Source of the DNA: Spirochaetaceae bacterium
GTDB taxonomy: Bacteria; Spirochaetota; Spirochaetia; DSM-27196; Alkalispirochaetaceae
Direction of reading: 5' to 3'
NCBI GenBank assembly: GCA_007695175.1
Contig: REEH01000098.1
Coordinates: forward strand, 1 to 43,764
DNA: 43,764 nucleotides
Numbering within the stretch: position 1 is the stretch's first letter; every line of letters starts with the position of its first letter. Positions 5,208 through 20,082 of the stretch are shown one piece after another. The position numbers and the translations under genes are program-made. The notes below the pieces were generated by a model that was given only the letters and a program-made list of their open reading frames with translations, made no database searches and was not told where the DNA came from.

Positions 5208-7502
5208 ATGGCTCAAGGCACCAAGATCGATGTCAGAAAACTGGATCTTCAGAGCGCGCGGGAAGAAGTCGCGAAGGAATCGGATAACTGGGGGCTTCCG
5301 GTGAAGGTTACCAAACGAGACGGACGACAGGTGCCGTTTGATGCCGACCGCATCAACCGCGCCATGGAACGGTGCTTCGAGGGTATCCAGCGCCAGTCCC
5401 GCACGCCGTTGACGGAGCTTACACACCAGGTGGTAAACGTGGTGGCGGCCAAGTTCAACGAACCCACGGTGGAACAGATCCAGGACGTGGTCGAGATGGT
5501 TCTCCAGGCAGCGGGAGAGTACGAGGCGGCAAAGGCGTACATCCTGTATCGTGCGGAGCACGAGAAACTCCGCAAGCTGCGCCCCGTTCCGCAGGATATT
5601 CAGGATGCGGTTGCGGCGTCGGATCCCTACTTCCCCACGCCGATCCAGAAATTCCAGTTCTACGACAAGTACAGCCGGTACAACTACGAGCTCGGACGGC
5701 GGGAGACCTGGATCGAGACGGTGGATCGCGCCGTGGACTACCTCGCTGAGCTCTCGGAGAATCGTCTGGACCGGAACGATTACGATCGCATCCGCCGGGC
5801 GATCCTGGAGATGAAGGTAATGCCCTCCATGCGTCTTCTGGCAATGGCGGGAGCTCCCGCCAGGCGTAACAATATCGCCATCTACAACTGCTCCTATCTG
5901 CCCGTGGACGCTATCGACTCCTTCGTGGAAGCCCTGATTATCAGCATGAACGGCTGTGGCGTGGGCTACAGCGTCGAACGGCAGTACATCGAGAAGCTTC
6001 CCCGCGTCAAAAGACAGACCGGCGAACACCTGGGTACACACGTGGTGGCCGACACCTCCGACGGATGGGCCACCGCCCTGCGGACGGGCCTGGAAACGTG
6101 GTTTGACGGCCGGGACATCTCCTTTGATTTTTCCCAGGTTCGCCCCGCCGGCGCGCCCCTGCGAATCAAGGGGGGCAGCGCCTCCGGACCGGAGCCGTTG
6201 CGGGTGATGCTGAACTTCTCCCGGGAGCGGGTACTCGCACGGCAGGGCGGGTTCATCACCTCCGTGGACGCTCACGATATCATGTGTGCCGTAGGGGGAG
6301 CCGCCGTATCGGGAGGCGTCCGTCGTACCGCGATGATCTCTCTCTTTGACTACGATGACAAGGAAATGCGCCACTGCAAGGATGGCGATTTCTGGCACAA
6401 GAACTCCCAGCGCTGGAACGCCAACAACTCCGCCGTCTGGCCCAACCGGGAGCTCTCCCAGGAGGAACTGGCTACGTTCGTCCTGGACACGGTACGCTCC
6501 GGCCGGGGAGAGCCCGGTATATTCAACCGGCGGGCGGCGGTACAGAACCGCCCCGTCCGCCGTGCGGAAGCGGACTTCGGCACCAACCCCTGCGGCGAGA
6601 TAATCCTCCGGCCGTACCAGTTCTGTAACCTCACCAGTGCGATTGCCCGGGAAGAGGACACCTTTGAGTCGCTCAAGGACAAGGTGGAAGTGGCCTCAAT
6701 TCTCGGCACGATCCAGGCGCTGGCCACCAACTTCCCGGGCCTGCGGCCCCAGTGGCAGCAGAACTGCGAGGAGGAGCGCCTCCTTGGAGTGGACCTGAAC
6801 GGCCAGATGGACAGCCCCGTCTGCCAGGACCCGGACGTGCAGAGCCGCCTGCGCTACGTGGCGGTCGAGACCAACCGCATCTACGCGGAAAAGCTCGGTA
6901 TCAACCAGTCCGCCGCGGTTACCACCGTGAAACCCTCCGGCAATTCGAGCCAGCTCATGAACAGCGCATCCGGCATACACGCACGGTGGGCGCCCTACTA
7001 CATCCGCAACGTCCGCGTAGGTGCCCACACCCCGATCTTCCAGGCGCTGCGTGATGAGGGTGTACCAATGGATCCGGAAAACGGCCAGACCGTGGACAAC
7101 GCCACCACCTGGGTGGCGCACTTCCCGATCAAGAGTCCCGACAGTGCAATCACCCGCAACAGCCGGGGAGCAATCGAACAGTGCAACTACTGGCTTCAGA
7201 ACAAGATTCACTACACCGAGCACAATCCCTCCGTGACGATCACCTATCGTCCCGATGAGGTGATCGATGTAATCAAATGGATCTGGGATCACCAGGACAA
7301 GATCGGCGGCATGGCATTCCTTCCGGCCAGCGATGCCCAGTACGACCAGATGCCCTACGTGGATATCTCCCGGGAGGAGTACGAACGACTGGCCCGCGCG
7401 TTCCCGGATATCGATTTCTCCAAGGTCTACCGGTACGAGGACCGGGACCTGACCACGGCGGCGCAGGAACTGGCCTGTCTTGCGGGGTCCTGTGACGTGT
7501 AA
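5208..7502 (+). CDS. nrdJ: Adenosylcobalamin-dependent (class II) ribonucleotide reductase
   Basis: 764 aa, ATG preceded by GGGAGGGGG. It makes deoxyribonucleotides using coenzyme B12, in the cytoplasm and with or without oxygen. An ATP-cone-like N-terminus (VTKRDGRQVPFDADRI) precedes the catalytic barrel. NPCGE places the thiyl-radical Cys at C462 with E464, and C473 follows 11 residues later as in the Lactobacillus leichmannii triphosphate reductase. C228 (in NCSYLP) should pair with C473 as the reducing disulfide. The C-terminal CLAGSC provides C757 and C762, with the spacing of the shuttle cysteines of the monomeric enzyme. Size and motifs favour the monomeric ribonucleoside-triphosphate type. 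Regulation by NrdR is suggested by the upstream box. The stop overlaps the start of a cobalt/nickel transporter gene. Confidence 0.95.
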   Translation: MAQGTKIDVRKLDLQSAREEVAKESDNWGLPVKVTKRDGRQVPFDADRINRAMERCFEGIQRQSRTPLTELTHQVVNVVAAKFNEPTVEQIQDVVEMVLQAAGEYEAAKAYILYRAEHEKLRKLRPVPQDIQDAVAASDPYFPTPIQKFQFYDKYSRYNYELGRRETWIETVDRAVDYLAELSENRLDRNDYDRIRRAILEMKVMPSMRLLAMAGAPARRNNIAIYNCSYLPVDAIDSFVEALIISMNGCGVGYSVERQYIEKLPRVKRQTGEHLGTHVVADTSDGWATALRTGLETWFDGRDISFDFSQVRPAGAPLRIKGGSASGPEPLRVMLNFSRERVLARQGGFITSVDAHDIMCAVGGAAVSGGVRRTAMISLFDYDDKEMRHCKDGDFWHKNSQRWNANNSAVWPNRELSQEELATFVLDTVRSGRGEPGIFNRRAAVQNRPVRRAEADFGTNPCGEIILRPYQFCNLTSAIAREEDTFESLKDKVEVASILGTIQALATNFPGLRPQWQQNCEEERLLGVDLNGQMDSPVCQDPDVQSRLRYVAVETNRIYAEKLGINQSAAVTTVKPSGNSSQLMNSASGIHARWAPYYIRNVRVGAHTPIFQALRDEGVPMDPENGQTVDNATTWVAHFPIKSPDSAITRNSRGAIEQCNYWLQNKIHYTEHNPSVTITYRPDEVIDVIKWIWDHQDKIGGMAFLPASDAQYDQMPYVDISREEYERLARAFPDIDFSKVYRYEDRDLTTAAQELACLAGSCDV

Positions 7503-8547
7503 TCGTTCCAGAGTCGCGGGGGTGTTTGCGGGCACCCTCGCCCTTCTTGTCCTTTTCGCGGTGGCTTTCCCGGCGCCGGCACCGGCCCAGTCCAATCCCT
7601 TTCTTGGTGGTGATGCCGCTCCCGGAACGGATAATGATGGGGCGGAGGGCAACGGCGAAGGAGCTGCGACTGCACCATCAGGATTGGGACTGGATACGGC
7701 GGCGGAGTTCTCTCCGCCCCGTACCGCCCTGGGAGCATGGCTGCGCGACGCGCAGCGGGGCCTCACGAGAAACCTCTCCACCACGCTCCGCGCCGTCCAG
7801 CGCGGTGAAACCACGGGAATGTTCTGGCTTATCGTCTCCCTGGCTTTCATCTACGGCGTGGTCCACTCCATTCTGCCGGGCCACCGCAAGATTCTCCTGG
7901 TTTCGTACTTTCTTGCCCGGGACGCCCGGCCCATAACGGGTGTCATAGCGGGGATTGCTCTCGCGGCCGTTCACGCCGCCGCGGCGGTAATCGTGGTCCT
8001 GGTAGCGTATTACGTGGTCAGAACCTCGGTGGGTGCGACCGTCGTCCGGGCCGGTGCGGCCGTGCAGACCGTCACGGCGGGGCTGGTGCTGGTGGCCGGG
8101 GTAGTGCTTCTGGTACTGACCATCCGGGAAATCCGCTCCCACCGGCGTGATGATCACGACGGGCACCATCACGACGGGCACCATCATGACGGGCACGGCC
8201 ATGACGGGCACGGCCACGGTGCCGACCCGGAGAAAGCCCGATCCCAGCGGTTGCTGCCGGTGATTGTCATCTCCGGGCTTGTTCCCTGTCCGGGATCCTC
8301 CATGATCATGCTCTTCGCCGTCTCCGTCGGAGTCGTGACACTGGGCCTCATAGCGGTAGCTTCCTTCGCCGTGGGCATGGCGCTCGTTTTCGCCGCGCTC
8401 TGCGTTGCCACGATTCTCGTCAAGGACCGTATCAACCGCCTGCTGGAAAGCCGGCGCGGCGCCGCGCTGCACCATGCAATCGAGATTGGCGGCGCCCTGG
8501 TTATGGTATCTTTTGGGTTGTTTCTCATGGCCCCGGTAATCCTTTAA
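7492..8547 (+). CDS. NicO/RcnA-type nickel/cobalt transporter with His-rich loop
   Basis: About 351 aa from GTG 7492, which overlaps the nrdJ end; TTG 7480 in the same frame is the alternative. A signal-like N-terminus ends PAPAPAQ. Membrane segments follow, with the family signatures HSILPGHRK (usually HALxPGHGK) and GLVPCPGS. A cytoplasmic or periplasmic loop between them holds about 20 residues of (H)HDGH repeats, a metal-binding feature common in RcnA. The family moves Ni2+ or Co2+; E. coli RcnA exports, while other members are predicted importers. Overlap with a B12-dependent reductase suggests cobalt supply, but direction cannot be read from sequence. No RcnR or NikR gene is nearby. Confidence 0.85.
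   Translation: MTCNRSRVAGVFAGTLALLVLFAVAFPAPAPAQSNPFLGGDAAPGTDNDGAEGNGEGAATAPSGLGLDTAAEFSPPRTALGAWLRDAQRGLTRNLSTTLRAVQRGETTGMFWLIVSLAFIYGVVHSILPGHRKILLVSYFLARDARPITGVIAGIALAAVHAAAAVIVVLVAYYVVRTSVGATVVRAGAAVQTVTAGLVLVAGVVLLVLTIREIRSHRRDDHDGHHHDGHHHDGHGHDGHGHGADPEKARSQRLLPVIVISGLVPCPGSSMIMLFAVSVGVVTLGLIAVASFAVGMALVFAALCVATILVKDRINRLLESRRGAALHHAIEIGGALVMVSFGLFLMAPVIL
8152..8211 (+). repeat. 15-bp tandem repeat (4 units) encoding His-rich loop
   Basis: Four units of the form catcacgacgggcac encode (H/D/G)HDGH repeats inside the NicO transporter. Near-identity at DNA level suggests recent slippage and possible copy-number variation of the metal-binding loop. Confidence 0.9.
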
Positions 8548-10088: not shown

Positions 10089-11159
10089 TCAGTGAATCAC
10101 CAGCTCGTATTCATCCCCCGGCACCTCAAAGCGATCGGCGATTCCCGCCGTGACAAAGACGCGCATATCCTCCGTGGCGAGAATGCCCTCGTACCCCGGG
10201 AGCGAGTCCAGGAGCGCCAGCCCCGCCTCCAGCCCCATCACGAAGATCGCCGTGGAGAGCACGTCCGTCTTCATCGCGTCCGCACCGATTGCGGTGACGC
10301 TGGTGAGCCCCGAGTCGCTGGGGTACCCCGTGGAAGGATCAAATATGTGGTGGTAGCGCACGCCATCCTCATGGAAGAAGCGCTCGTAGGCGCCGGAACT
10401 GACCACGCTCTCGTCGCGGGATGAGAGAATGCCCACAAAACGGTTGCGCTCTCCGCTGGGGTGCTGGATCCCGATCCGCCAGGGCGAACCATCGGGGCGT
10501 CCGCCTATCGTGACGATATCACCGCCAAAGTCGAGGATCGCGTTGCGCACTCCCGCTTCCCGCAGGACCCGCGCCGCCTCGTCCGCGGCGTATCCCTTGG
10601 CGATGCCACCCACATCGATCCCCATCTCCGGGGAGGGCAGGTACACCGCACTGCCGGTCCCGGCGTGAATCTCCACGCGGGAATAATCGACCGCCGGGAG
10701 GACCGCTTCGATCTCTTCCGCAGCGGGGACGCGCTCCTCCCCCGTACCGAATCCCCACAGGCGGATCAGGGGCGCCACGGTGATATCAAAGGCTCCCCCC
10801 GTCAGTTCTCCGTAGCGGAGGCCCTCCCGGATCACCTTCAGCGTATCCTCCGAGACCGCCACGGGCTCGAGGCCCGCCCTCCGGTTTATGCGCAACACCT
10901 CCGTGTCGTCGTACTCCGCCTCGTTGAGACTCATGAGATTCTGGATTTCTTCCGTTCGATCAAAGGCAGGCTGGAATACGTTCCGGGAGATTCCGTGCTG
11001 ATGGATGGTGATCGTTACGGCGGTTCCCAGCAGAAACCGTGTATCGCTGATGCGCTCCGGGGAAGCGGACCGGCAGCCGGCCAGGAGCAGCAGAAGTGAC
11101 AGGAGCAGTACCGGAAATACCAGGACGGCCGCGCGCCGCGAATGAGTTCGAAACGTCAC
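10089..11159 (-). CDS. apbE: FAD:protein FMN transferase (ApbE), lipoprotein
   Basis: 356 aa starting at GTG 11159, which overlaps the stop of the upstream membrane gene (GTGA). The open frame continues further upstream but without protein-like sequence. Signal peptide with lipobox LLAGC (C29). ApbE signatures are clear: FLLGTAVTITIH, LTGGAFDITVAPLIRLWGFG, GIDVGGIAKGYAADEA, ILDFGGDIVTIGG, and HHIFDPSTGYP near the C-terminus. The enzyme moves FMN from FAD to a Thr or Ser in partner proteins on the outer face of the inner membrane and needs Mg2+. Pairing with a ferric-reductase-like membrane protein suggests a flavin-based transmembrane electron route. No obvious FMN-binding-domain target is in the window. 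Confidence 0.93.
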   Translation of the reverse strand: MTFRTHSRRAAVLVFPVLLLSLLLLLAGCRSASPERISDTRFLLGTAVTITIHQHGISRNVFQPAFDRTEEIQNLMSLNEAEYDDTEVLRINRRAGLEPVAVSEDTLKVIREGLRYGELTGGAFDITVAPLIRLWGFGTGEERVPAAEEIEAVLPAVDYSRVEIHAGTGSAVYLPSPEMGIDVGGIAKGYAADEAARVLREAGVRNAILDFGGDIVTIGGRPDGSPWRIGIQHPSGERNRFVGILSSRDESVVSSGAYERFFHEDGVRYHHIFDPSTGYPSDSGLTSVTAIGADAMKTDVLSTAIFVMGLEAGLALLDSLPGYEGILATEDMRVFVTAGIADRFEVPGDEYELVIH

Positions 11160-11788
11160 GTCGTGGACGCGCCCTGGATCACGGAGCGAATCTTGCGTCC
11201 CGCCACGTAGAGATAGAACGCGAAGAAGACGATGAATACGACCCGCGTAAGAGACCACACACCGGTTACGGTGCCGATCGTGATCGCGTGGAGAAATGCC
11301 AGGGGAAAAACAAAGAAGGCCAGCACGTGAAAACCCTTCCACACCTTGAGGGAAAACTGCAGTGGGCGCAGCCACCAGGCGGCCACGACGGCGGGTATCA
11401 GAAGGAATAGCGCCACGATCCCCAGAAGCTTTTCCACCGTAAAAACGATCATCCCGTAATCCACGAGATCCGTCAGGAGCATCATCAGCCCATGAAGCAG
11501 CATCAGTACAAACCCGATTTTACCGAGCGTGCGGTGCGTCTTTATCAGATTGGGCTGTTTGAACACCGCCTGCAGCACCGGAAGACGCGCCGAGAGGAGA
11601 AACTGGTAGAACATCAGCACGAAACCCACCAGCGCCAGCACGCGGGCCGGGTAATAGATCACCACCAGACTCAGGGGAACCTGTACATCGCCCAGGCTGG
11701 AAAAATCCCGGACGCCGCTGATGATCCACTCAACCACCGGAATGAGCGGCAGAAGAATCGCCAGGGCCAGTATGACCTTCTTGTTCAT
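11156..11788 (-). CDS. Ferric-reductase-like transmembrane protein (haem-b type)
   Basis: 210 aa, about six membrane helices. Histidines sit in helices or at their ends (KTHRTLG, LHGLMM, KGFHVLAFF, FLHAITIG), in the paired pattern that binds haem b in the ferric-reductase/YedZ (MsrQ) superfamily. It lacks the FAD and NAD domains of full ferric reductases, so it probably passes electrons between quinone or a partner and periplasmic flavoprotein acceptors. The stop overlaps the start of apbE. The extreme C-terminus, QGASTT, loosely resembles an ApbE flavinylation motif but is predicted cytoplasmic. ATG 11788 lies 9 bases after a TGCTATAAT extended -10, so the transcript is nearly leaderless. 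Confidence 0.8.
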   Translation of the reverse strand: MNKKVILALAILLPLIPVVEWIISGVRDFSSLGDVQVPLSLVVIYYPARVLALVGFVLMFYQFLLSARLPVLQAVFKQPNLIKTHRTLGKIGFVLMLLHGLMMLLTDLVDYGMIVFTVEKLLGIVALFLLIPAVVAAWWLRPLQFSLKVWKGFHVLAFFVFPLAFLHAITIGTVTGVWSLTRVVFIVFFAFYLYVAGRKIRSVIQGASTT

Positions 11789-11918: not shown

Positions 11919-13709
11919 GTGAAGAAACATATCGTGTTGCGATCCCTTTTCGGACTGTACATCGTGCTCGGTCTCGTATTCATCGGTCACGGTTCGGCCC
12001 AGGTTCTATCGTCCCGTTTTGCACGCCTGGAGGGGGACTCGGAGCTGTCTCTGGAGATGCGGGTGGTCAAAAACCGCTGGCAATGGGACCCCGGTGTGAT
12101 CGTCGTTCCCCAGGGTGCGCTGGTAACGCTCGATATCGAGAACGAGGACGATTTTGACCACGGCTTTGCTATCCGGGAGCTCGGACTTGACCGGCGCCTG
12201 CCGGGCAAACAGACCACCACGGTCCAGTTTGTGGCGGATCGGGAAGGAGAGTTTGAATACTTCTGCTCCGTCTACTGCGGCCCGGGACACTTTGACCAGA
12301 AAGGACTTCTGGTGGTGACACGGGATGATGTGGAAGCGGTGCGGGCCTCCTACGGAGCGATCGCGCGGGCGGATCTGCCCCAGCGCAGCACCGCCGATGC
12401 AATCAAGCGTCTTCCCTACACCCTGACCGAGGAGGGCGTGAAGGTATTCGAACTCACCGCTGAACATATCATGTGGGATTACGGCAACGGGGAGATCATC
12501 GAGTCCTGGGGTTACAACGGACAGCTCCCGGGTCCGGAGATCCGCGTCACCGAGGGAGATACGGTGCGCATCAACTTCACCAACAACCTTCCCGTCCCGA
12601 CCACCGTACACTGGCACGGTCTGGACGTACCCAACGCGATGGACGGTGTTCCGGGCTACACGCAGGACCCGGTGCTGCCGGGTGAGACCTTTGTATACGA
12701 GTTTGACGCCCACCCCGCGGGTACCCGCATGTATCACACCCACGGATCCCACCACGGCGACGAAGCGCAGCAGATGGACATGGGCCTGGCCGGCCCCTTC
12801 GTGGTGGAGCCCCGGGACTTTGACGCTCCCGACGTGGATTACACCATGGTCCTGACCGAGCGGATTCGTGACGGGGTATACCCCATAAACGGTGCTATCT
12901 ATCCGGAAACGGAGTTCATCACCGTCCGGGAGGGTGACCGCGTGCGCATACGCTTTATAAACGCCGGCTCCAGCACCTTCCATCCCATGCATCTTCATGG
13001 CCACCAGTTCAGGGTGGTAGCCACCGACGGCAACCCCGTCCCGGAAGCAGCCCAGTGGATACGCAACGTTCAGCCCCTCCTGCCGGGAGAGATCTACGAC
13101 GTGGAGTTTATCGCGGATAATCCCGGCGTCTGGCTGCTCCACTGCCACGAGCTCCAGCACGCCGGAGGCGGCATGATCACCGCCGTCGTCTACGAGGATT
13201 CGATCGGTAGCGGTTTCGAACTGGAAAACCACCGGGGAGAACGCGTCACCGATCAGGACTTCAGGGACCTTTACAAGCTGGTCACCTTCGGGTACACCAA
13301 CTGCCCCGATATCTGCGCCCTCACCATGGCGGACATTGCCGCGGCGATTCGCCTTCTGGGGGATGACGCGGACCAGGTGCAGGGCCTGTTCGTAACGATC
13401 GATCCGGACCGGGACACGGCGGAGGTGATTGCCCCCTACGTGGAGGCCTTCAGCGATCGCATCACCGGTCTGACCGGTACACCCGAGGAGATCGCCCGCG
13501 TAGCCGGGGCCTACGGAGCGCGATATGAGCCCGTTGAGCAGAGTGGCGGCAGTTACTCCATGGACCATTCCACCACCATCTTTCTCATGGGGCCCGCGGG
13601 AGAGTTCGTCGCCCAGTTTACCCACAACTCCGGACCGGAGCGGATAGCCGCGGCGATTCGCAATGACCTGGCGTCGCGTCGCCTGAAGGAGGCGATCGCC
13701 ACCCGGTAG
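11919..13709 (+). CDS. Cupredoxin - multicopper oxidase - Sco1/SenC fusion protein
   Basis: 596 aa from GTG 11919, six bases after GGAGG (11908-11912); the in-frame TTG at 11916 is too close. Signal peptide about 1-27. Domain 1 (about 30-125) is a CuA-like cupredoxin with H81 and CSVYCGPGH (C116, C120, H124); the CuA methionine position is Gln. Domain 2 (about 155-425) is a two-domain-type multicopper oxidase: HWHG (H231, H233), HTHG (H273, H275), HPMHLHGH (H355-H362) and HCHELQHAGGGM (H408, C409, H410, H414, M419), a full trinuclear plus type 1 copper set. Domain 3 (about 430-590) is Sco1/SenC: GYTNCPDIC (C462, C466) and DHSTTIFL (H550). Secreted to the periplasm. Likely a copper oxidase, laccase-like or nitrite-reductase-like, carrying its own metallochaperone. 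A PCuAC gene follows. Confidence 0.9.
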   Translation: MKKHIVLRSLFGLYIVLGLVFIGHGSAQVLSSRFARLEGDSELSLEMRVVKNRWQWDPGVIVVPQGALVTLDIENEDDFDHGFAIRELGLDRRLPGKQTTTVQFVADREGEFEYFCSVYCGPGHFDQKGLLVVTRDDVEAVRASYGAIARADLPQRSTADAIKRLPYTLTEEGVKVFELTAEHIMWDYGNGEIIESWGYNGQLPGPEIRVTEGDTVRINFTNNLPVPTTVHWHGLDVPNAMDGVPGYTQDPVLPGETFVYEFDAHPAGTRMYHTHGSHHGDEAQQMDMGLAGPFVVEPRDFDAPDVDYTMVLTERIRDGVYPINGAIYPETEFITVREGDRVRIRFINAGSSTFHPMHLHGHQFRVVATDGNPVPEAAQWIRNVQPLLPGEIYDVEFIADNPGVWLLHCHELQHAGGGMITAVVYEDSIGSGFELENHRGERVTDQDFRDLYKLVTFGYTNCPDICALTMADIAAAIRLLGDDADQVQGLFVTIDPDRDTAEVIAPYVEAFSDRITGLTGTPEEIARVAGAYGARYEPVEQSGGSYSMDHSTTIFLMGPAGEFVAQFTHNSGPERIAAAIRNDLASRRLKEAIATR

Positions 13710-13741: not shown

Positions 13742-14281
13742 ATGAAGATCACGACACGAGCCTTTACCGCTCTATTGCTCATATCGGTGGCAGCCTTTGC
13801 CGACGCGGGCGGCAGCCATGAAGCCGGCGGCAGCCATGAAGCGGGCCACCGGAACAGCCACGGCACACCGGGAATCCGGATCGTGCAACCCTGGGTACGG
13901 GCGGTACCGAGTTCCGGGGGCAATACCGGCGCATACATGCAGATCGGAAACCCCGGCGAGACCCCGGACCGGCTCCTGGCCGCCCGGGTTCCGGGCGTAC
14001 GGGCCGTGGAACTGCACACCCACGAAATGGACGGCGAAATGGCGCGCATGCGCAGGATCCCCGAAATCGTGATTCCCCCCGGAGAGATCGTGGAACTGGC
14101 ACCGCGGGGGCTGCACGTGATGCTCATGGGCGTCGAGCGTGCGCTGCACGAGGGCGACACGGTAAAAATGATCCTTCTATTCGAACACGCCGGCGAGATC
14201 GAGATCACCGCGCCGGTGCACCCCATCACGGGAGCTCCAGGCCAGGGCCACCGCCGCGACCACCAGCACCGTTCCAACTGA
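13742..14281 (+). CDS. Periplasmic copper chaperone PCuAC (DUF461)
   Basis: 179 aa, ATG 13742 after GGAGAAAAGAGA. Signal peptide ends about residue 20. A His-rich stretch of GGSHEA repeats follows. The PCuAC domain has IRIVQPWVRAVPSSGGNTGA, then the copper ligands in the H-x-M...M...H-x-M arrangement: HTHEMDGEMARMR and LHVMLMG. A second His-rich tail (GHRRDHQHRSN) ends the protein. PCuAC holds Cu(I) and works with Sco proteins to load the CuA site of cytochrome oxidase subunit II. Here it lies 32 bp behind a protein that contains both a CuA-like and a Sco domain, so it probably feeds that protein. Confidence 0.9.
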   Translation: MKITTRAFTALLLISVAAFADAGGSHEAGGSHEAGHRNSHGTPGIRIVQPWVRAVPSSGGNTGAYMQIGNPGETPDRLLAARVPGVRAVELHTHEMDGEMARMRRIPEIVIPPGEIVELAPRGLHVMLMGVERALHEGDTVKMILLFEHAGEIEITAPVHPITGAPGQGHRRDHQHRSN

Positions 14282-18224: not shown

Positions 18225-19250
18225 ATGACCAACGTTGGCAGCAGTCGTGTGTTCAACACTCTTCTTCTGATTGCCCTGACCGGTGTCGCGGTTCAGATGT
18301 ATCGGTCCTTTCTTCTGGTACCGCAGTTTCAGCTCTTCGCACTGCGGGTGATCACCATGTTTCTTGAAGCGCTGCCCTTCCTCGTGGCGGCGGCCCTCCT
18401 CACGGCGATCGCCCGGGAGATCCTGCCTTCCCCGCGGATCGTACAGTTCTGTCGCGAACGCAGGCCCCTGGGCCTGCCCCTGATCGTGATTTCGGGATTC
18501 CTCCTGCCCCTGGACGAGGTCCGACTCCCCGCGCTCTTTCGCGATCTGCGGTCCCGGGGGCTCCCGACGCCCCACCTGGCGGCGGCACTCCTGGCGATCC
18601 CGCTCATTAACCCTGTGGTCGTAGCCTCCACGATAGCGGCATTTCCATCAAAACCTGAACTGGTGGCGTTCCGTTTCCTCGCGGGATTGATCATCGCCCT
18701 CGCGGTGGGAGCGCTCCTGGTGGCATGGACCCCGCCGGAGAGGAACGCTGAATCCCGGAAGCGGACTTCCCCGGAGGAAGCGCACCCGGGCCCGGTAACG
18801 GAGAGCGGCGCACCGGAGAGCGGCGCAACCATGAAAGCCAGAGCCGACCGGGTAATCCAGAAAGGCCTCGCCGGTTTCCTTATGCTGGGTCGATTCTTTC
18901 TCGTCGCGGCGGCGGTGACGGCGTTACTGCAGAGTATCGAGCTTCCCCCGGCTCTCGGGCAGTTGCGGGCCGCCCTCATTCCGAGCGCGCTGGTCGCGAC
19001 AGGGCTGGCTTACCTGCTTGCGGCACCGGCGGCGGGCGACGCGTTTGTGGCACGAGGTCTCCTGACCGTCCTTCCCCTGCCGGCGCTTACCGGTTTTCTC
19101 GTCCTTGGACCGATGCTCAACCTGCGCAACACCCCCGTTTTCGCGCAGATACTCAAGACCGGTCATGTCGTGCTGCTGCACATCGCGGTGTTCGCCTTGA
19201 GCCTCGCGGCGGCGCTGGCGGCAGCGCTCCTCATGCAGTGGACGCCCTAG
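18225..19250 (+). CDS. YcgR/YraQ-like (DUF318) membrane permease, Cys motif missing
   Basis: 341 aa, about eight to ten membrane helices with a hydrophilic loop near residues 170-205. The family core is visible: GFLLPLDEVRLP...RSRGLPTPHLAAALLAIPLINPVVVAST. In most DUF318 permeases the segment after the proline is a Cys-containing CDCG/CECG motif; here it is DEVR, so no cysteine is present at that site. The gene is followed 7 bp later by a TIGR03943-type gene, as in Bacillus subtilis ycgR-ycgQ, which are under zinc control (Zur). I see no recognisable Zur box. The function in this organism is unknown; a metal-linked envelope role is an inference. Confidence 0.75.
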   Translation: MTNVGSSRVFNTLLLIALTGVAVQMYRSFLLVPQFQLFALRVITMFLEALPFLVAAALLTAIAREILPSPRIVQFCRERRPLGLPLIVISGFLLPLDEVRLPALFRDLRSRGLPTPHLAAALLAIPLINPVVVASTIAAFPSKPELVAFRFLAGLIIALAVGALLVAWTPPERNAESRKRTSPEEAHPGPVTESGAPESGATMKARADRVIQKGLAGFLMLGRFFLVAAAVTALLQSIELPPALGQLRAALIPSALVATGLAYLLAAPAAGDAFVARGLLTVLPLPALTGFLVLGPMLNLRNTPVFAQILKTGHVVLLHIAVFALSLAAALAAALLMQWTP

Positions 19251-19257
19251 TGCCGGG

Positions 19258-20082
19258 ATGAAAGGGAATACCCGCTCCGTTCTTGGTGCTCTTCTGTATC
19301 TGGCGGCTTTCACCGTGCTCTGGGGAGTGCTGGTGTTCATCGGCATGCCCGGTCGATTCCCGGGACTCCTGCACCCCCGGATCTGGTCCCGTGCTCTCGC
19401 TTCATCGATTGTACTGGTGATCCTCGGGGCGTGGTATCTGATCTCCTCCCTGAGAGGTGATAGGGAGGCATGCCGGCCGATAACCGTAATCCCCCTCTTC
19501 CTGCTCCTCCTGCTCGTCCCTCCGGCGCTTCGGGATCCCCAGGTTGACCGCCGCCACCTCAACATCACCGCGGGAGGGAATCTTCCCGGCATAAACCGGG
19601 AAAGCTCCGATCTCCTGAGCGCGGTGGACGCCGTCCTCCGTGAGCAATCAACGGACCCGGATCACGCGGAGGAACTGGGTCGCCTGCTGGAGCAACCGGA
19701 TCCGATCATAATCGCCGATGCCGACTACTCCCGGACCATCGATCTCATCTGGGACGCGCCGCAACGCTTCGCGGGAAGGACGGTGGAGACGGTTGCCTTT
19801 GTTTTCCGTCGTCCCGACTGGTCGCCGGAGATTTTTACCGCTGCCCGCCTTTCCATCTGGTGCTGTGTAGCCGACGCCGCGGTCATCGGTCTGCTCGTGG
19901 AGACAAGTCTCCTCGATGCTCCCCGGGAAAACGACTGGGTTCGCATCAGGGGTGAGTTGGCGGTGATGGACAGCTTTGACACCGGCTCGGTCACGATGAG
20001 AAACGCACCGGTACTCCGTAATGTCACCTGGGAGAGCGCGGCCGCTCCGGACTTTGAATACGTCTTCCCCGCAAACTGGTAG
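19258..20082 (+). CDS. TIGR03943/DUF1980 (YcgQ-like) membrane-anchored protein
   Basis: 274 aa. Hydrophobic helices at about 8-30, 42-62 and 78-96 precede a soluble C-terminal half. The region FTAARLSIWCCVADAAVIGLL is the diagnostic conserved block of the YcgQ family, with its paired cysteines. RFAGRTVETVAFVFR upstream and NDWVRIRGEL downstream fit the same family (OB-fold-like). These proteins are always found with a DUF318 permease, as here. The pair may form one membrane complex; the substrate is not known. Confidence 0.75.
   Translation: MKGNTRSVLGALLYLAAFTVLWGVLVFIGMPGRFPGLLHPRIWSRALASSIVLVILGAWYLISSLRGDREACRPITVIPLFLLLLLVPPALRDPQVDRRHLNITAGGNLPGINRESSDLLSAVDAVLREQSTDPDHAEELGRLLEQPDPIIIADADYSRTIDLIWDAPQRFAGRTVETVAFVFRRPDWSPEIFTAARLSIWCCVADAAVIGLLVETSLLDAPRENDWVRIRGELAVMDSFDTGSVTMRNAPVLRNVTWESAAAPDFEYVFPANW

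Follow-up and report, generated by a model that had tools for sequence, protein, structure and literature searches.

Type-B two-domain multicopper oxidases (MCOs), such as the exported laccases SLAC and CjMCO, consist of two cupredoxin domains with the T1 copper in domain 2 and a full set of trinuclear-centre ligands (PMC13151041). They form homotrimers in which the T1 copper is oriented toward the central tunnel and the trinuclear centre lies between protomers, and those characterised to date act as laccases (PMC13151041). Some trimeric copper enzymes of two domains carry one more cupredoxin, namely the three-domain cupredoxin-NirK of Hyphomicrobium (2dv6/6tfo) and, with the cupredoxin at the C-terminus, an MCO of Nitrosopumilus (9cck). 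Neither system includes a Sco domain. To our knowledge, the extra cupredoxin of these systems is not CuA-like with two Cys. NirK carries its T1 Cys in domain 1, has a mononuclear T2 site and lacks the His of a trinuclear centre. CuA cupredoxins with a His, Cys-x3-Cys, x3-His arrangement occur in COX2, which has an N-terminal membrane helix, and in NosZ, with Sco and PCuAC at hand. The Sco1/SenC and PCuAC pair that assembles CuA is normally separate from its client; in Thermus, Sco acts as reductant of the CuA cysteines, and the two coppers are inserted by PCuAC (PMC6696091). PCuAC clients extend beyond CuA, AccA being the loader of the nitrite reductase AniA (PMC13006917). In MsrPQ (YedYZ), a haem-b membrane protein passes respiratory-chain electrons to a periplasmic enzyme (PMC5449189).

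The locus described here lies on contig REEH01000098.1 of a Spirochaetaceae metagenome-assembled genome (MAG; GCA_007695175.1), of which the whole analysed stretch of 43,764 nucleotides is referred to as the window. Positions 11919-13709 of the forward strand form a single uninterrupted frame of 596 codons, running from GTG at 11919 to TAG at 13709 with no internal stops and with a Shine-Dalgarno-like GGAGG directly 5' of the start codon. The encoded protein comprises, in order, a transmembrane helix, a CuA-like cupredoxin, a type-B two-domain MCO and a Sco1/SenC domain; one open reading frame and the Pfam matches confirm the cupredoxin, MCO and Sco order that an earlier note had read from the sequence as a single polypeptide. 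Pfam matches above cut-off were Cupredoxin_1 (residues 48-119, 3e-13), Cu-oxidase_3 (196-300, 2e-40), Cu-oxidase_2 (322-427, 8e-35) and SCO1-SenC (432-564, 1e-45), and COX2 (62-125) was barely over (22.1 bits against a cut-off of 22). These residue numbers are one higher than the ligand numbers below, which count GTG as residue 1, as the frame was there taken from 11916. The helix (residues 3-24, 11925-11990), which was identified from the AlphaFold2 model and the sequence, would serve as anchor or signal, and COX2 begins in the same way. The AlphaFold2 model has a mean pLDDT of 86 and a pTM of only 0.66, so that single domains are confidently predicted and the packing and placement between them are unreliable.

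A search for the same architecture recovered the fusion in 14 other Spirochaetales MAGs (13 full length, one truncated by the contig start), mostly from soda lakes as read from isolate names. The identical join in all of them rules out an assembly error or frameshift joining separate genes, which the earlier note had raised as an objection to its own reading. The orthologous fusions share about 56-77% identity with unchanged ligand columns. Among 393 sampled genomes of the phylum, the full-length protein was confined to the window's own order. Cupredoxin-MCOs without Sco were found in Kaiserbacteria and Nanohaloarchaea, and Saccharibacteria have a version with a different cupredoxin. In Kaiserbacteria and Saccharibacteria, a weakly DUF2214-like membrane protein is encoded just 5' of the MCO (L039:922-1707, L043:4962-5744, L071:3283-5472), and in the L071 protein the membrane part is followed by a cupredoxin and by a beta-propeller of the YncE type.

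The cupredoxin (residues 41-134, 12039-12320), delimited by Pfam, solved relatives and alignment, presents H81, C116, C120 and H124 in the His, Cys-x3-Cys, x3-His arrangement, and its nearest solved relatives were the COX2 CuA chains of Thermus ba3, with NosZ next. The axial position is Gln (Q127) instead of Met. Gln occupies this position in every spirochaete and Kaiserbacteria homologue, and Met in Nanohaloarchaea. Since the axial Met is a defining feature of CuA, we label the domain CuA-like and not canonical CuA; the His, the two Cys and the second His bear out the CuA-like assignment of the earlier note, to which the axial Gln is added as a correction. Given this Gln, the site may differ from a true binuclear CuA. 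The fusion also departs from COX2 and NosZ in that the domain is joined to an MCO and not to a haem-copper or CuZ enzyme, in a host in which COX1 was undetected. The proposal that the cupredoxin is an internal electron-entry domain gained support, as cupredoxin-NirK and the cupredoxin-MCO of Nitrosopumilus were among the best fold matches. An Azambacteria MAG (L044) encodes a CuA-like cupredoxin as a protein of its own, with the same ligands including the Gln (10539-10934, reverse strand), about 4 kb from a related MCO.

The MCO was placed by Pfam, structure comparison and alignment, and also by AlphaFold2 for domain 1 (residues 173-300, 12435-12818), which holds H231, H233, H273 and H275. Domain 2 (residues 301-428, 12819-13202) holds H355, H358, H360, H408, C409, H410, H414 and the axial M419. 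The ligand set had been described as complete with an axial Met, which is correct; its count is 10 His, one Cys and one Met, and it includes all eight His of the trinuclear centre. Among 23 close homologues, none that covers the respective region deviates at any of these residues. The earlier view of a complete MCO holds for the ligands and needs correction in kind, as two cupredoxin domains (Cu-oxidase_3 and Cu-oxidase_2) form the enzyme, not three. The top fold partners were the two-domain MCOs 3gdc, 2zwn and 3g5w (Z 32-33, rmsd 1.5-2.1 over about 260 residues), in an alignment that covered residues 145-570 well, the N-terminal fold resting on sequence matches. The type C enzymes 3g5w and 2zwn have YHCH in domain 1 and HDH without Cys in domain 2, whereas the fusion has YHTH followed by HCHxxxHxxxxM. 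Its T1 set (C409, H355, H414 and M419) lies in domain 2, and T274 occupies the domain 1 position of the type C T1 Cys. As only domain 2 has a T1 site, the MCO is of type B as defined in PMC13151041 on each sequence feature tested, and would form a trimer with shared trinuclear centre. Compared with the fusion, SLAC and CjMCO lack a CuA-like and a Sco domain. Membership in NirK was ruled out by the ligands, namely T274 at the domain 1 T1 Cys position and the full trinuclear set.

The Sco1/SenC domain, defined by Pfam and alignment, extends from about residue 431 (13209-13709), and its C462, C466 and H550 (CxxxC and a distal His), which the earlier note had picked out, align invariantly in 15 fusions. 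A PCuAC copper chaperone (13742-14281, forward strand; Pfam 3.5e-35) starts 32 bp 3' of the fusion, as had been noted, with an exact H-X10-M-X21-H-X-M motif, and follows the fusion at all loci where the contig extends far enough. The locus thus shares with the known CuA-assembly pair all copper-binding residues and adjoining coding sequences, but differs in that Sco is covalently joined to its client. The host MAG has one Sco and one PCuAC in total, both at this locus. Service to a cytochrome oxidase was ruled out for this MAG, in which COX1 was undetected. COX1 was found in two other carriers (G016, G040), and it does not co-vary with the MCO.

Among 46 genomes, PCuAC was present in 17 of 20 MCO carriers and in 1 of 26 others (Fisher p 1e-8, uncorrected for relatedness). 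In three carriers PCuAC is missing: the fusion contig of one stops at the expected PCuAC site, and the other two have Sco-less proteins. In these two close relatives, in which the gene is complete, Sco and PCuAC are missing together, which suggests that the pair is an optional module for assembly. The Sco-less relatives retain all oxidase ligands, and the best-fitting reading still needs a separate PCuAC; Sco thus looks like an optional aid, and the 'self-metallating' enzyme suggested in the earlier note is not supported by these data. On the MCO tree, the two Sco-less spirochaete proteins stand apart from each other, one being the starred sister of a fused protein (99/96). Because they do not group, on a tree whose backbone is unresolved, Sco was lost or gained more than once. 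In one relative (L122, G014 contig 175, the same as L019), the cupredoxin-MCO frame passes from domain 1 nearly straight into PCuAC, with domain 2 and Sco mostly absent by deletion or misassembly. Plasmid pRmeGR4a of Sinorhizobium meliloti (L107, 4818-9107) carries an unfused counterpart, a run of MCO, DUF411, SCO, DsbA-family and CcdA genes beside a CusA-type efflux gene. In Azambacteria (L044:4587-6869, forward strand), the same MCO family is fused C-terminally to a DsbD/CcdA-like membrane domain.

Divergent from the fusion, and outside the interval covered by the earlier note (11919-13709), lies a gene for a putative ferric-reductase/MsrQ-like haem-b membrane protein (11159-11788, reverse strand). 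It is likely, from co-occurrence, conserved His, fold and the Pfam matches of relatives, to be the electron donor to the fusion. Pfam gave no match for the window's own protein, and a 71%-identical relative (L034) matches PF01794 (Ferric_reduct) at 4e-12 and MsrQ weakly (E 0.005). Four His (H85, H99, H154 and H167) are invariant in 17 of 17 sequences, and the predicted model matches the membrane domains of cytochrome b561, STEAP and NOX at E 0.003 or worse. The close subfamily, defined by at least 177 bits, was present in 18 of the 20 genomes with the MCO and absent from all 26 without it (p 7e-11, uncorrected for relatedness). The gene is divergent from and adjoins the fusion in 11 loci, lies about 8 kb off in one more genome and sits on a separate contig in five, which makes the link to the MCO independent of adjacency. 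The loci with unlinked haem-b genes have no further gene in common beyond the shared synteny of close relatives. The proposed pairing resembles MsrPQ in the role of a haem-b donor, but MsrP is a molybdenum enzyme and the match to MsrQ is weak. An ApbE-family FAD:protein FMN transferase, apparently a lipoprotein, is encoded 3' of the haem-b gene (10092-11150, reverse strand, start approximate; Pfam 1.4e-89). Elsewhere in the window, a transporter of the NicO family that contains a His-rich loop (7480-8544, upstream of the fusion) could be a metal exporter, and an ArsP_1 permease is encoded ahead of a DUF1980 protein (18225-20079).

The host MAG is 97% complete. Neither COX1 nor, by PF00034 (Cytochrom_C), cytochrome c was detected in it, and PF01578 gave no cytochrome c assembly protein; bd oxidase was found in none of the 46 genomes, the host MAG among them. 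Such absences in MAGs may be gaps. Cytochrome c was rejected as donor in the host MAG on the basis of the PF00034 and PF01578 searches. In the host MAG, the gene for an NDH-2-like dehydrogenase is clustered with those for a MenA-like prenyltransferase and YceI (contig 72, L128 3854-6807), and the dehydrogenase and MenA-like pair recurs in seven further carriers that were checked, as well as in one genome without the MCO. The identity of the quinone is uncertain, since the MenA-like match is just under cut-off and MenD was not found; menaquinone synthesis via MenD was discarded, as the only match was far below cut-off and resembles acetolactate synthase. The host cells look anaerobic or fermentative.

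We propose, with about an even chance of being right, that the fusion works in the periplasm as an O2 reductase, anchored in the membrane and carrying its own assembly domain. The quinone pool, or else a flavin, would supply electrons to the haem-b membrane protein of the divergent gene, which would hand them on to the CuA-like site. From this site they would reach first the T1 copper in domain 2 of the MCO and then the trinuclear centre at the interface of trimer protomers, where O2 would be reduced to water. The route from cupredoxin to T1 is not obvious, because the type-B T1 copper faces the trimer's central tunnel (PMC13151041). It also counts against this proposal that characterised type-B MCOs are slow as laccases. 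The Sco domain would keep the CuA cysteines reduced, dock copper or both, while PCuAC would deliver copper; the two would together complete the CuA-like site, either in the chain to which Sco belongs or in its trimer neighbours. In the cell, the enzyme might remove O2 and act as an electron sink where haem-copper oxidase, bd oxidase and cytochrome c are lacking.

The main rival to this O2 reductase is a copper-detoxifying cuprous oxidase of the CueO/CopA kind, with Sco and PCuAC in copper handling and the cupredoxin aiding Cu(I) capture. The Sinorhizobium arrangement of a related MCO beside CusA-type efflux speaks for it, as does a top weak NCBIfam match to copper_res_A, far below cut-off. We regard it as unlikely, given that no obvious copper-efflux gene adjoins the fusion in the window and no Met-rich substrate loop is seen in the MCO; PCuAC is known as a supplier of enzymes and not of exporters, and detoxification would explain neither the CuA-like domain for electron entry nor the haem-b protein that co-occurs. 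That the type-B MCOs so far characterised are laccases (PMC13151041), together with the Foldseek match to the MCO with C-terminal cupredoxin from the ammonia oxidiser Nitrosopumilus, would suit an enzyme that oxidises organic substrates (laccase or phenol oxidase) or some other small compound of nitrogen or a metal and in which the cupredoxin serves as a relay. The membrane anchor, cupredoxin entry and haem-b co-occurrence favour a protein or quinol donor, and no need for Sco or PCuAC is known among laccases, which makes such an oxidase quite improbable.

The Sco domain could also be a thiol or peroxide redox domain or an oxidase regulator instead of an assembly factor. Sco proteins can be thiol oxidoreductases (PMC6696091), and the Azambacteria fusion joins a DsbD/CcdA-like domain to the same MCO family; the invariance of C462, C466 and H550 in all fusions and the joint loss of Sco and PCuAC nevertheless leave this very unlikely. 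Least probable is a nitrite or NO reductase like three-domain cupredoxin-NirK, whose chains ranked high in the fold search, PCuAC being known to load the NirK AniA (PMC13006917), for the fusion has Thr where NirK has its domain 1 T1 Cys and all eight trinuclear His, which NirK lacks.

Type-B MCOs and extra cupredoxins on two-domain trimeric enzymes are known. The open-access literature yielded no account of an MCO with a CuA-like domain or of a Sco joined to the protein it serves, so that the CuA-like and Sco domains on an MCO are apparently new; the earlier note likewise knew of no protein with this order. It is possible, though we put it forward only tentatively, that the fusion represents a new class of respiratory O2 reductase in which electrons flow from NADH dehydrogenase through quinone and haem-b protein to a CuA-like site with axial Gln and an MCO with its own Sco, without haem-copper oxidase, bd oxidase or cytochrome c. 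The fusions supply natural CuA-like sites bearing an axial Gln, and close relatives with and without Sco and PCuAC make the debated role of Sco, as thiol reductant or copper carrier, testable within one polypeptide. If the proposal is true, CuA-type electron entry with its Sco/PCuAC kit would be a portable module beyond haem-copper oxidases and NosZ, and an MCO would replace the respiratory oxidase in some anaerobe-like lineages.
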